A DNA stretch of 64,000 nt from Herbidospora daliensis (lineage in GTDB: Bacteria; Actinomycetota; Actinomycetes; Streptosporangiales; Streptosporangiaceae). The stretch lies in contig NZ_BBXF01000002.1 in NCBI RefSeq assembly GCF_001570585.1, forward strand, positions 496,001 to 560,000, in the 5' to 3' direction. This document shows positions 14,557 to 23,886 of the stretch, piece by piece. Made by a program: the position numbers and the translations under genes. The notes below the pieces were generated by a model. It saw nothing but the letters and a program-made list of their open reading frames with translations. It did not search any database and had not been told where the DNA came from. Within the stretch, counting starts at the first letter, position 1. Every line of letters starts with the position of its first letter.

Positions 14557-14598
14557 CCCTCGTAGGGTATCGGGCGGCGGACGGCCACCACGAAGCCT

Positions 14599-14641
14599 GT
14601 GGATAAACCTGTGGATACTGCGGTGTGTGTCCTGTGGACAA
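14599..14641. promoter_or_regulatory. three DnaA-box-like sites ahead of rsmG
   Basis: TGTGGATAA at 14599-14607, TGTGGATAC at 14610-14618 and TGTGGACAA at 14633-14641. They match the complement of TT(A/G)TCCACA exactly or with one change. They lie in the rsmG upstream region, 2.5 kb from dnaA. Confidence 0.7.
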
Positions 14642-17034: not shown

Positions 17035-17189
17035 GATGGGCTCCAGGCTAGATGTGCCCTGTCGTTAGGGCGATTAGACCAAAGTTTACGGCCCACCGGG
17101 CACAGGGCATGCGAAAGAGCCGTCCCGAGAAAGCCGACCGGGTCACGTTACGGGGTAGACGCCCGAATGGTCAAACCGGCGCCCCTAGT

Positions 17190-17376
17190 TTTCCACAGGC
17201 TGTGGAGTTATCCACACGCTCCTTGGTCATCCACATCCTGTGGGCAACGGGTGCCAGTAGGCTGTGGACAACGTCTTGAACGCAGGTCGCGGACACCGCT
17301 ACTGTCAGGCGTCCAGTCCCTCCCTCCACACCCAGAGCACCTGTGGATCTCCTGTGGATCTTCTGTGGATAGTCAC
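17190..17376. promoter_or_regulatory. DnaA-box cluster in the rpmH-dnaA intergenic region
   Basis: Boxes on both strands include TTTTCCACA (17191), TTATCCACA (17208), CATCCACAT (17228), TGTGGACAA (17263) and three spaced TGTGGAT motifs between 17341 and 17370. They suggest DnaA autoregulation and possibly a second half of the origin. Confidence 0.75.
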
Positions 17377-17479
17377 AGCGGGGGCCGGCGCCACCGGGAC
17401 CAGACCGGTAGAGGCGGGTGTGGATAACGACACGCGGGCGAGCGATCATGGGGACCGCGTCAGGGAGGAGTGCCGAACG

Positions 17480-19183
17480 GTGGACGGCGTCGACCTCAAT
17501 CAGTTGTGGGCGAGAGCGCTCACCACGCTCCTCGATCAGGGAGTCTCAGGTCAGCAGCGCGCGTTCCTGCAGATGACGCAGCCGTCTGGGCTGATCAACG
17601 ACACGATTCTGCTGGCCGCCCCCAACGACTTCGCCAAAGAGGTCATCGAGGTGCGGCTGCGGCCGCTCATCATGCAGGCGCTGTCGCAGGAGTTCGGCCG
17701 GCCGGTCCGCATCGCGGTGATGGTCGACCCGACCGCGACGCAGGCGGAGCCGAAACAGCAGAACTACGGCCGTCCGGGTGGTTTTCCCCAGAGTGGCGGC
17801 CCGGCTTTTCCCCAGACCAATACGCCCGGGTATCCCCAGAGCACCCCGACGGGTGGTTTTCCCCAGGCCGCTCCCACCGGCGGTTATCCCCAGAACCCCG
17901 CATCCGGTGGTTTTCCCCAGGCTGGGGATCACGGCTTTCAACAGCCTGTGCAATCTCCGCAGGGCTTCGGCCAGGGCTTTCATCAGGAGCCCACAGAGCA
18001 GCCGGCTGATTTTCCACAGGGTCGCCCACAGGGAGTCCCAGGTGCGCCGCCGCCCGCCGAGCAGCCGTACACGCAGTATCCACAGGCTGAGGAGAAGAAC
18101 GACAAGGCGCCGCCCCGGCCCTCCGGCGGCAAGCCGGGTGAGCCCGCGCGGCTGAACGCCAAGTACACCTTTGAGACGTTCGTCATCGGCGCGAGCAACC
18201 GGTTCGCCCACGCGGCGGCGGTCGCGGTGGCCGAGGCGCCGGCGAAGGCGTACAACCCACTCTTCATCTATGGGGACTCGGGGCTGGGGAAGACGCACCT
18301 TCTCCATGCCATCGGTCACTACGCGCAGAGCCTGTATGAAGGTGCGCGGGTGCGGTACGTGAGCTCCGAGGAGTTCACCAACGACTTCATCAACAGCATC
18401 CGCGACCACAAGGCCGACGGGTTCCGGGCGCGGTTCCGGGCTGTGGACATCCTCCTCGTGGACGACATCCAGTTCCTTGAGGGCAAGGAGCAGACGCAGG
18501 AGGAGTTCTTCCACACCTTCAACACCCTCCACAACAGCAGCAAGCAGATCGTGATCTCCAGCGACCGGGCGCCGAAGCAGCTGGTCACCCTGGAGGACCG
18601 GCTCCGCAACCGCTTCGAGTGGGGGCTGATCACCGACGTGCAGCCGCCCGAGCTCGAGACGCGCATCGCGATCCTGCGCAAGAAGGCGATCCAGGAGGGC
18701 CTGGCCGCGCCGCCCGACGTGCTGGAGTACATCGCCAGCCGGATCGCCACCAACATCCGCGAGCTCGAAGGCGCACTAATAAGGGTGACGGCCTTCGCGT
18801 CGCTCAACCGGCAGTCGGTCGACATCGGCCTGACCGAGATCGTGCTGAAGGACCTCATCACCGAGGACAGCTCCAGCACCGAGATCACCATTGCGCTCAT
18901 CATGTCGACGACGGCGGAGTACTTCGGCGTCTCGCTCGACGACCTGTGCGGCGGATCGCGGTCGCGCGCCCTCGTGGTGGCCCGTCAGATCGCCATGTAC
19001 CTGGCCCGGGAGCTCACCGACCTCTCGCTGCCGAAGATCGGCGCCCAGTTCGGCGGCCGTGACCACACCACCGTCATGCACAGCGAGCGGAAGATCCGCT
19101 CCCTGATGGCCGAGCGGCGCTCGATGTACAACCAGGTCAACGAGCTGACGACCCGGATCAAGCAGCGCGCGCGCACCTCTTGA
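17480..19183 (+). CDS. dnaA: chromosomal replication initiator DnaA
   Basis: Initiator ATPase of 567 residues. Domain I spans about residues 1-85. Domain II (about 90-225) is an unusual Pro/Gln/Gly-rich linker built of GFPQ/GYPQ-type repeats. Domain III has Walker [10 protein letters not shown] near residue 265 and Walker [12 protein letters not shown] near 325. Domain IV has the DnaA signature [12 protein letters not shown] near 527. The GTG at 17480 follows GGGAGGAG by 9 bases; longer in-frame starts run through DnaA boxes and were rejected. The linker is encoded largely by DnaA-box-like DNA (see findings). oriC follows directly. Confidence 0.97.
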
Positions 19184-19186
19184 TTC

Positions 19187-19781
19187 ACAGCCTGTGGATA
19201 ACTCTGTGGATCACGGAACACAGGTGTAATTCGTCGCGCGCTGGAAACTCATAGATCAACAGGCCACACCGGGCTGTGGACGAGTCTGTGGACAACCTGT
19301 GGACAAGGCCCCCTCCAGCGGTGGATAACCTGTGGACGCGCTGTGGATGACCTGTGGGTAGTGGAAAAAACACACTCCGTGTCGGGCGTGTCTCATGTGG
19401 AGAACCTGTGGAAAAGCTGTGGGTAACCGGTGGATAACTGGGTGCAAACCTGTGGACGGCCTGTGGGTAACTAAAAGTTATCCCCAGCACGCGCTGAGTA
19501 ATCCCCAGGTCGTCCACAGGTGCTGTGGACAAAAATCCGGCCGCTGACCTGCGGTTATAGGGGTTCTTCCACATTTCCACAGCGCCTATTAAGACGACCG
19601 ATATCTCTACCTAGAGGAAAGTCAAGAGCAACCTTCGAGCTCGGGCCGGAGCAAAAAATCCCGGAGTTGACACCTCCCGGCAAGCGACGAAGATGGGCAG
19701 TCACACCTCAGCGCCACCGCGTCGCCGCCCCCAGCCATCACAGCCCGACGCCGTCCCACCCACCACAGGAGGCTGATCCAC
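19187..19781. other. oriC: replication origin oriC
   Basis: The 595-base dnaA-dnaN gap is packed with about twenty DnaA-box-like 9-mers on both strands, mostly TGTGGATAA/TGTGGACAA variants between 19190 and 19450. There are also TTATCCCCA near 19479, GTCCACAGG near 19512 and TTTCCACAG near 19574. A relatively AT-rich stretch follows (about 19585-19620, CTATTAAGACGACCGATATC), the likely unwinding element. Position and content are those of actinobacterial origins. Confidence 0.95.
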
Positions 19782-21992: not shown

Positions 21993-23165
21993 ATGTTCAC
22001 CGCCCACCTGTCGCTGACGGACTTCCGGTCCTACCCCACCGCCGAGCTGGCGCTCGAACCCGGGGTGACCGCCTTCGTCGGGCCCAACGGGCAGGGCAAG
22101 ACCAATCTGGTCGAGGCGATCGGTTACGTCGCCTCGCACGCCTCGCACCGGGTGGCGACCGACGCTCCTCTGGTACGCCACGGCGCCCCCCGGGCCGTGA
22201 TCCGGGCCGTGATCGAGCGCGACCAGAGACGGGCGCTGGTCGAACTGGAGATCAACCCGGGCAAGGCCAACCGCGCCCGCGTCAACCGCGCCCCGGTGTC
22301 GCGGGCCAGAGACGCCCTCGGCGTGCTGCGGACCGTGCTGTTCGCCCCCGAGGATTTGGCCCTGTCGAAGGGCGACCCGTCCGAACGCCGCAAGTTCATG
22401 GACGACCTCCTCGTGGCCCGCCACCCCCGGTTCGCCGGCGTCCGGGCCGACTACGACCGCGCCCTCAAGCAGCGCAACGCCCTGCTCCGGACGGCCTCCC
22501 AGGCCCGCCGCCGGAGCCCGAGGCGGCAGATGGACGACGCGGCGTTCGCCTCGGCCGGGGCCGGCGACGTGTTGTCCACATTGGAGGTCTGGGACGCGCA
22601 CCTGGTGCGGCACGGGGCCGAGTTGCTCGCGGCCCGGCTGGACCTTGTGGAGAACCTGCGTCCTCTGGTGGCCAAGGCTTATGCGGAACTGGCGCCCGGG
22701 TCCGTCCCGGCGCAGATCGACTACCGGTGGTTTTCCACAGACGAGGACGACCTGGGGACGGATCGTGCGGAACTGGCCGTACGGTTGGGACAGGCGCTGG
22801 CCGAGGCGCGGGCGCAGGAGATCGAGCGGGGGGTCACCCTCGTGGGGCCGCACCGCGACGATCTGCTGCTGCGGCTGGGCGAGTTGCCGGCGCGTGGTTA
22901 CGCCAGCCACGGGGAGTCGTGGTCGTTCGCGCTGGCGCTGCGGCTGGCTGCATATGACCTGCTGCGTTCGGAAGGGGGCGATCCGGTGCTGATCCTCGAC
23001 GACGTGTTCGCCGAACTCGACGCCCAGCGACGCCGGCGGCTGGCCGAGATCGTCGCCCCGGCGGAGCAGGTGCTGATCACGGCGGCGGTGGCGGAGGACG
23101 TACCGAGGGAACTGAGCGGCGCCCGCTTCGACGTGACGGAGGGGAGCGTGACCCGTGTCGGGTGA
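21993..23165 (+). CDS. recF: DNA replication/repair protein RecF
   Basis: SMC-like ATPase of 390 residues that promotes RecA loading at gaps. Walker [10 protein letters not shown] lies near residue 30, the family signature [16 protein letters not shown] near 127, and Walker [12 protein letters not shown] near 332. It overlaps the DUF721 gene by 11 bases. GTTTTCCACAG and TTGTCCACA-type motifs appear in its coding DNA near 22570 and 22731. Confidence 0.96.
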
Positions 23166-23886
23166 CAATCCACAGGAACCGGCGAATTCACAGCGGCCGG
23201 GCAACCTGCGGAAGCCCGGCTATCCACAGAGTTCCGGGAATCCACAGGACTCAGGTGATCCCCAAGGGCTAGGCAATCCACAAGTGCCTGGATATCCACA
23301 GGGGCAGCGTGGAGATCGGCCAGCGCCCGGCAACCTCGGTGACGCACCGTCGGCTGGTTATCCACAGGCTGTTGACGGGCCGACCGAAGGGCAGCGGGCG
23401 TCCAACGCCAAAGGCGCCGCGCTCGCTCGCGAAAAACTCGCCCAGGCCAAAGCCGACGCCCAGCGCCGTGGCCAGCTTCCACGTACCGAACCACGGAAGA
23501 AGAAGGGCGGCCCCAAGCGGGATTCCGGTGATCCGATGCTCTTCGGGGCCGCGATCCAGGACCTGCTGGCCGCTCGCGGGTGGGAGGAACCGGTCGCGAT
23601 CGGCGGGGTTTTCGGGCGGTGGCGGGAGATCGTCGGCGCGGAACTCGGTCTGCACACCCGTCCAGAAGCCTTCGAGGACGGCGAGGTCATCGTCTCCGCC
23701 GACTCGACGGCTTGGGCCACTCAGGTGCGTTTGCTCGCTCCGACCCTGGTCAGAAGGCTGAACGAGGAGCTCGGGGACGGTACGGTCACCGCCGTGAAGG
23801 TCCGCGGGCCCAACCTCGCACCGCCGCGACAGGCGGGCCACATCCGGGTGAAGGGGAGTCGAGGACCGGGTGACACTTTCGGCTGA
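23155..23886 (+). CDS. DUF721 protein with Pro-Gln repeat N-terminus
   Basis: Protein of 243 residues. The C-terminal half (from about residue 125) is a DUF721 domain, a DciA-like/KH-type module common between recF and gyrB ([20 protein letters not shown], then [17 protein letters not shown]). DciA relatives load the replicative helicase in bacteria lacking DnaC, so a helicase-loading role is inferred. The first 75 residues are low complexity with repeated NPQ, DPQ and YPQ units, encoded by DnaA-box-like TCCACAG sequences, including a perfect TTATCCACA at 23358-23366. GTG start at 23155 inside recF indicates translational coupling. Confidence 0.9.

Follow-up and report, generated by a model that had tools for sequence, protein, structure and literature searches.

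Coding sequence can be shaped by the protein-binding sites that it contains, and such stretches are known as duons. Neither DnaA boxes nor titration, bipartite origins or intragenic DnaA sites are new. In Escherichia coli, DnaA boxes are described as concentrated near oriC, a distribution read as titration (PMC12371093), and intragenic DnaA-bound regions have been reported, including a site within dnaN (PMC11317965). In vivo, DnaA of the same species is reported to prefer tandem box pairs with 2-3 bp between them (PMC11317965). Of the DnaA domains, domain II is described as the most diverse, and its N-terminal part as having the least understood role (PMC5448010). Here we report a locus at which predicted boxes lie in the coding DNA of this linker: statistically, the synonymous codons of the linker are shown to be chosen such that the DNA spells putative DnaA boxes, in many of the variants and spacings of the origin, in one sampled clade of Streptosporangiaceae.

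The window, by which we mean the whole stretch of 64,000 nt analysed here (G000:C2:496001-560000), is the origin region of a Herbidospora (Streptosporangiaceae), and its best named match is Herbidospora mongoliensis, at 90%. The product of its dnaA gene belongs to the DnaA family, with an AAA+ domain (PF00308, 7.8e-77) and a C-terminal DNA-binding domain (PF08299, 1.9e-29). The gene, its linker and the sites within the linker are as follows:

17480..19183, plus strand: dnaA, GTG start, 567 aa, from translation; Pfam Bac_DnaA and Bac_DnaA_C above cut-off
17738..18148, plus strand: coding DNA of domain II (linker), limits from alignment to domains I and III
17782..17790, plus strand: TTTTCCCCA, box-like, two mismatches, GFPQ unit
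17806..17814, plus strand: TTTTCCCCA, box-like, two mismatches, AFPQ unit
17830..17838, plus strand: GTATCCCCA, box-like, two mismatches, GYPQ unit
17857..17865, plus strand: TTTTCCCCA, box-like, two mismatches, GFPQ unit
17884..17892, plus strand: TTATCCCCA, box, one mismatch, GYPQ unit; 33 relatives have 23 copies of the identical 9-mer in the 700 bp following dnaA
17911..17919, plus strand: TTTTCCCCA, box-like, two mismatches, GFPQ unit, plus arm of an inverted pair
17923..17931, minus strand: TGATCCCCA, box-like, two mismatches, minus arm, +12 from 17911
18010..18018, plus strand: TTTTCCACA, box, one mismatch, DFPQ unit
18022..18030, plus strand: TCGCCCACA, weak partner with 6/9 matches, +12 from 18010, forming a tandem double box with a 3-bp gap
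18076..18084, plus strand: GTATCCACA, box, one mismatch, QYPQ unit, plus arm of an inverted pair
18088..18096, minus strand: TTCTCCTCA, box-like, two mismatches, minus arm, +12 from 18076

A preliminary description of this DNA had placed a run of about nine FPQ/YPQ units here, had given their codon strings and had called them close to the initiator box. Its coordinates are right, its codon strings are present in the linker and the units are real, but they number eight, five FPQ and three YPQ, all within 17782-18084, with near-units (FQQ, FHQ, SPQ, RPQ) present too. As for closeness, three lie at one mismatch from TTATCCACA and five at two (four TTTTCCCCA and one GTATCCCCA). Both minus-strand sites, at 17923 and 18088, are likewise two mismatches from TTATCCACA, and each follows a plus-strand site by 12 bp, giving the inverted pairs. 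Judged by eye, the box at 18010 (TTTTCCACA, DFPQ) seems to occupy the place of the DYPQ box of other genera. At ~17938, TTT CAA CAG CCT GTG resembles a rare-codon run kept in Nonomuraea-type linkers. The view that the DnaA linker is disordered comes mainly from the literature; a structure prediction looks as expected for disorder (residues 87-249 with pLDDT <50, no helix or strand from 83 to ~233), and supports it weakly because the whole DnaA model is poor (mean pLDDT 47.9, pTM 0.27, domains III-IV low as well).

For the window, we kept the protein fixed and redrew synonymous codons from local usage in 20,000 draws. Within one mismatch of TTATCCACA, the linker holds 3 sites against 0.07 expected, a number reached in 0 of 20,000 draws; within two mismatches it holds 10 against 0.92, the maximum over all draws being 5. 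A chance origin of the linker boxes is thus rejected by synonymous resampling, together with a scan of all 9-mers described below. A biased null as the cause of the excess is rejected as well, given that 263 distant CDS of the same genome (400-kb sample) contain 10 boxes against 10.3 expected. The codons themselves are unusual for this genome. Of the 8 phenylalanine codons in domain II, 7 are TTT, compared with 12 of 488 in the other ORFs of the window and 66 of 3026 in 400 kb sampled from elsewhere in the genome. Box-like codons are not a habit of the tripeptide either, as the preliminary description had proposed to check against genome-wide usage: the 11 FPQ/YPQ found in the 400-kb genome sample use TTT in 0/6, TAT in 2/5 and CCA in 0/11. 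Across the whole 8.5-Mb genome there are only 22 perfect copies of TTATCCACA and 8 of TTTTCCCCAG, four of the latter within this linker and one more in another box cluster.

To place the linker among its relatives, two sets of genes were assembled. In the first, 162 distinct dnaA genes, for which the expectation in short loci came from their own small codon counts, boxes within one mismatch number 156 against 5.27 expected in linker DNA and 18 against 14.35 in the rest of dnaA. The extended set comprised 234 loci, from which 7 without a recognisable domain I and 23 duplicates were removed, leaving 204 genes: 84 of the clade, 47 of them Nonomuraea-type, 33 of a Streptomyces group and 87 others. 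The limits of the clade follow a domain III-IV tree (support 0.856) and were set by three tips whose choice came after inspection of the box listing. Among genomes with a dnaA match, some were left out, for example G117, G103 and G131 (of 53) and G026, G035, G064, G071 and G084 (of 71), several having dnaA split over contigs. Thirty-four representatives, including five Nonomuraea-type and two Herbidospora, were picked by hand; pooled codon usage was applied to short loci in the 9-mer scan, the tests on these representatives, the window resampling and scrambles, and the spacing test.

All clade genes (84/84) carry one or more linker boxes within one mismatch, compared with 0/33 of the Streptomyces group and 16/87 of the others. 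In the clade, box density is 10.6 per kb in the linker, 6.8 in the 600 bp upstream and 8.5 in the 700 bp downstream, compared with 0.10 in domains III-IV, and domain I of the 84 genes contains no boxes within one mismatch; the idea that the origin's box field reaches into dnaA is well supported by these densities. The 34 representatives carry 106 boxes within one mismatch of TTATCCACA, against 2.15 expected from codon usage; permuting the linker's own synonymous codons raises the expectation to 18.1. When all 9-mers were ranked by enrichment in these genes, the top word was TATCCACAG (30/34 genes, 0.40 expected), with TTATCCACA fourth (14 genes, 0.05 expected) and TTATCCCCA fifth (21 genes, 0.40 expected), and TTTTCCCCA present in 9 copies in 5 genes (0.08 expected). 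The median excess of 953 scrambled boxes was -0.06, and the largest, ATTATCCAC (52 vs 1.0), is the box shifted by one. Variants in the 700 bp after dnaA and in domain II also agree in 33 representatives (TTATCCCCA 23 and 24 times, TTATCCACA 27 and 20, TTTTCCCCA 7 and 9), although the two sets differ in part: TTATCCACG (31) and TGATCCACA (25) are frequent downstream of dnaA, whereas domain II has TGATCCACA once and TTATCCACG not at all among the 45 words listed for it in these 33 genes. The preliminary description needs one correction, in that the window's TTTTCCCCAG units are a local elaboration, the forms common across the clade being TTATCCACA and TTATCCCCA.

Several individual linkers are worth recording. 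A second genus (G031; L022 / L178) has a TTTTCCCCAG array, with seven FPQ of which six are coded TTT CCC CAG, and this array apparently arose independently of that of Herbidospora. In L066 and L135 (Thermomonospora echinospora), a VDHG repeat codes three minus-strand TGATCCACA sites, and a +1-frame TTATCCACA (VIH) is found in both, as it is in L132 and L136. L078, titled Streptomyces sp. SID3343, has two linker boxes, TTTTCCACA in frame +0 and TTATCCACA on the minus strand; its place on the tree is not within the Streptomyces group, and it was counted among the 87 others.

Certain spacings between the boxes are also enriched. Besides the in-frame repeats, the commonest spacings in the linker are direct 11 and inverted 12, both of them common in the intergenic origin as well. 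Under a null in which the main box was fixed and the remainder redrawn, with a partner defined by at least 6/9 matches, tandem partners are in excess at -11 (20 vs 6.1 expected) and +12 (16 vs 2.7), while -12 (4 vs 2.8) and +11 (2 vs 0.5) hardly rise above the null; inverted +12 is weaker (13 vs 8.2). The spacing signal is not clean, since in-frame offsets are in excess too (+30, 14 vs 3.2; +21, 10 vs 1.3). The -11 spacing is not a multiple of 3. The recurrent -11 element, approximately TCGTCCACCGATTATCCACAG, codes SSTDYPQ and holds its two boxes in different frames. Counted per gene, as a raw number with no null model, a tandem pair is present in 73/84 clade genes, 0/33 of the Streptomyces group and 3/87 others; in the window it is the pair at 18010/18022.

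Boxes in the window extend to both sides of dnaA and into two further genes:

17189..17427, no strand assigned: upstream box cluster, six sites within one mismatch
19193..19532, no strand assigned: dnaA-dnaN intergenic box cluster (oriC), 13 sites within one mismatch
21993..23165, plus strand: recF, with boxes at 22572 (plus), 22646 (minus) and 22731 (plus), 3 observed vs 0.01 expected
23155..23886, plus strand: dciA (PF05258, 3.7e-22), overlapping the end of recF, with boxes at 23220, 23292 and 23358

In recF, identified in relatives by motif, 28 clade genes contain 46 boxes vs 0.47 expected (23 genes with at least one), compared with 5 vs 0.76 in 40 others and no boxes in 29 genes of the Streptomyces group. 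The commonest clade frame there gives xST (TTGTCCACA 21, TTATCCACA 9). Boxes are thus in excess around oriC beyond the origin itself, as one would look for in a titration region, the distant CDS of the genome giving 10 vs 10.3; in 28 long clade loci, box density at -7 to -4.5 kb is 0-0.16 per kb. In the window, the recF boxes span 22572-22739, one of them coding WFSTD with rare TTT and ACA.

Of the seven [NYD]PQ units in the N-terminal tail of the window's DciA, six are written xAT-CCA-CAG/CAA and the seventh GAT-CCC-CAA. A long tail of HPQ, NPQ, YPQ and DPQ units, nearly all xAT-CCA-CAG/CAA, is shared by the window and 2/6 other Herbidospora loci; of the remaining four loci, two show one DPQ unit each and the other two lack such units. 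Boxes within one mismatch in these tails number 3 vs 0.04 in the window, 2 vs 0.03 in L261 and 3 vs 0.03 in L263, and the tails of L260 and L262 contain none. Tail length varies between Herbidospora species from absent to ~85 residues (window 23155-23420, L260-L264, L031). The clade's dciA is generally not box-rich (3 vs 0.21 expected in 26 genes, a count for which the window's tail had been shortened to 34 residues); the loose pattern used to find the genes missed 2 in the clade, 16 in the Streptomyces group and 15 among the others, and several of its Streptomyces rows appear to be wrong ORFs. Among Pseudonocardiales, VDxVDN repeats in putative dciA 5' regions of L071, L073, L085 and L095 (Lentzea, Actinophytocola, Actinokineospora) correspond to minus-strand TTATCCACA-type boxes. 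The signal of these genes, part of 19 vs 0.79 in 39 'other' genes, concerns another order, strand and frame, and is only a lead because the start codons there are putative. An excess in other ORFs (e.g., 29 vs 1.1 directly downstream of dnaA in the Streptomyces group) was set aside as possibly due to spurious ORFs in intergenic DNA.

Further clusters were seen ahead of dnaA. About 68 kb before the gene, L254:5123-5417 (G000:C2 ~445,123-445,417) contains eleven minus-strand boxes within one mismatch. Seven of these belong to a tandem repeat of 15 bp (CTGTGGATAGACCGG) that falls in a 478-aa ORF with VDRPA repeats, weakly coding by composition; this cluster might work as a distant sink for DnaA, much as datA does. 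At L255:14361-14492 (G000:C2 ~474,361-474,492), 39 kb before dnaA, there are six more boxes within one mismatch, and three lie at 14598-14641 of the window, directly before the probable rsmG start and within an upstream-extended ORF.

The main alternative role for the linker boxes is autoregulation, in which DnaA bound 300-600 bp inside its own gene would act as a transcription roadblock or repressor and so build a feedback loop into coding sequence. The position of the sites in the 5' part of dnaA and their origin-like density would suit such a role, as would the described repression of dnaA by DnaA in E. coli (PMC12371093). On the other hand, the window already has six boxes upstream of dnaA, and coding boxes occur in recF as well (46 vs 0.47 in 28 clade genes), so that regulation of dnaA alone does not account for the box field. 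We consider this role possible but rather unlikely.

Another possibility is that the peptide is what selection sees: aromatic-Pro-Gln repeats would do a protein job such as spacing, condensation or partner binding, and the DNA would merely follow. The repeats are indeed in-frame, with 95/106 boxes of the 34 representatives in the YPQ frame, but the others exceed their expectations (frame +0, 4 vs 0.03; +1, 1 vs 0.01; minus strand (-2), 6 vs 0.29), and boxes turn up in unrelated proteins with other peptides (xST in RecF; NPQ, HPQ and YPQ in DciA). The rare codons, moreover, are found mainly in box context: Y/F codons of the representatives end in T in 122/151 cases within [YF]xQ vs 40/209 elsewhere in the linker, and A, S and T codons in [YF]xQ context end in A in 15/19 vs 52/906. 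Within [YF]xQ, T-ending Y/F codons make up 81/82 in boxes within one mismatch, 32/34 in those at two and 9/35 in sites that are not box-like, box status itself depending on that base. In the 84 clade genes, the proline of [YF]PQ is CCG in 5/234 cases vs 884/1873 for other linker prolines, whereas [YF]xQ of the Streptomyces group is T-ending in 5/106 cases and its [YF]PQ proline is CCG in 5/5. The preliminary description had reasoned that its reading would fall if relatives kept FPQ/YPQ and used codons freely; inside the clade such freedom is not seen, while the Streptomyces group writes its [YF]xQ peptides with ordinary codons.

Residues also vary where the box permits. At one site of the 47 Nonomuraea-type genes the residue is A28/P8/T6/S5 and its codon ends in A in 46/47, giving TTATNCACA with N free; the codons are GCA28, CCA7, CCC1, ACA6 and TCA5, so that all four bases are seen at box position 5, and NCA codons are 4-6% of usage. 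Two further sites have TAT and CCA each in 47/47 and TAT and CCC each in 46/47. Counting against a simple picture, the Y/F codon of the free-residue box is T-ending in just 38/47, and the window's four TTTTCCCCA units, two mismatches from consensus, also count against the box reading. Synonymous divergence is lower in box codons than in the rest of the linker (0.148 vs 0.232 in Nonomuraea-type genes, 0.088 vs 0.167 in Herbidospora); the synonymous-site conservation proposed as a check is therefore present relative to the linker, but box codons are about equal to domains III-IV (0.160 and 0.070, respectively). Overall, the evidence favours DNA first over peptide first, and we regard selection on the peptide as very unlikely.

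Comparably improbable, in our view, is some other constraint on the same letters, such as the binding of another protein to the DNA or RNA, a slowing of translation that helps folding, or local instability of the duplex. There are observations in its favour. Some fixed rare codons lie outside good boxes, with FEQ in Nonomuraea-type genes keeping TTT-GAA though TTTTGAACA is a poor box, and other linker Y/F codons are T-ending somewhat above background (40/209, compared with 2% for F and 7.5% for Y in the genome); neither is accounted for by the box alone. In the Nonomuraea-type alignment, columns 19-25 and 74-78 keep rare codons strongly (CAT CAA CAG CCT GTG; TTT GAA CAG) and are poor boxes by consensus. 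Against it, the top enriched words are those of the adjoining oriC, and F/Y outside boxes in Nonomuraea-type columns 55, 74 and 102 are nearly all TTC or TAC, which is evidence against general slow-codon or AT-rich selection. A generic rare-codon or AT-rich linker is thus disfavoured by these columns and by the box-context codon bias, some rare codons outside good boxes remaining. Hardly credible, finally, is a relic of tandem duplication, with a founder TTTTCCCCAG unit copied and codons alike by descent: a 27-bp period (3.3 copies, 72% match) is detectable and the Herbidospora array therefore probably expanded by duplication, but spacers differ between units while cores are nearly constant, cores are less diverged than spacers at synonymous sites (Herbidospora, 0.088 vs 0.167), clade boxes have different spacing and flanks, genus G031 (L022) has its own TTTTCCCCAG array, and tandem partners 11 bp away in another frame are left unexplained.

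We therefore return to the reading that we hold to be highly probable, namely that domain II of dnaA is a predicted in-gene DnaA-binding array, part of one origin-centred array, and that its peptides are largely a by-product. DnaA would bind the linker sites cooperatively, as tandem pairs, and these would belong with the upstream cluster, oriC, recF and, in some Herbidospora, dciA. The most likely role would be to keep DnaA near oriC, either as a sink that is replicated early and titrates DnaA, or as a scaffold extending the orisome, or both, the scaffold perhaps bridging the clusters that flank dnaA on both sides. As the linker is variable and tolerant, the boxes would be translated as peptides of the GYPQ/GFPQ type, largely by-products themselves. 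A wider proposal, which we think rather likely and hold with less assurance, is that initiator-binding selection near the origin wrote protein: the DnaA linker and, in some Herbidospora, the new N-terminal tail of DciA, the helicase operator, would be translated box arrays, DnaA would bind its own linker DNA as double boxes, and linker and origin layout would co-evolve. The sequence of the linker would then have a concrete non-protein cause, which is a caution against taking linker motifs for protein features, and models of actinomycete origins would gain a box cluster inside dnaA.

Our literature search, from which subscription journals were mostly out of reach, found no earlier report of boxes in the DnaA linker, nor did it find Streptomyces ChIP-seq papers on DnaA sites within coding DNA. 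Several described systems nevertheless resemble what we see. The accumulation of boxes near the E. coli origin, as described in PMC12371093, is alike in that boxes crowd around oriC and beyond oriC itself; here they lie within the coding DNA of the initiator gene, at origin-like density, with codon choice bent to them. The double DnaA box of E. coli (PMC11317965) likewise joins a strong box to a weaker partner with 2-3 bp between them, while the paired boxes predicted here from sequence may sit in different frames of one protein (SSTDYPQ) and recur in many genera. In the bipartite oriC of Bacillus subtilis and Helicobacter pylori, as presented in PMC5448010, dnaA lies between two clusters, just as clusters flank it here; the difference is a third cluster inside dnaA, in the variable linker part. 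The datA and DARS sites of E. coli (PMC12371093) are also box clusters away from oriC, and they act on DnaA; that source describes them as non-coding, in contrast to the coding DNA of the predicted clusters here. Lastly, the linker is like a duon in that its codon choice appears constrained by a DNA-binding protein, with the difference that the bound protein would here be the product of the very gene that carries the sites.
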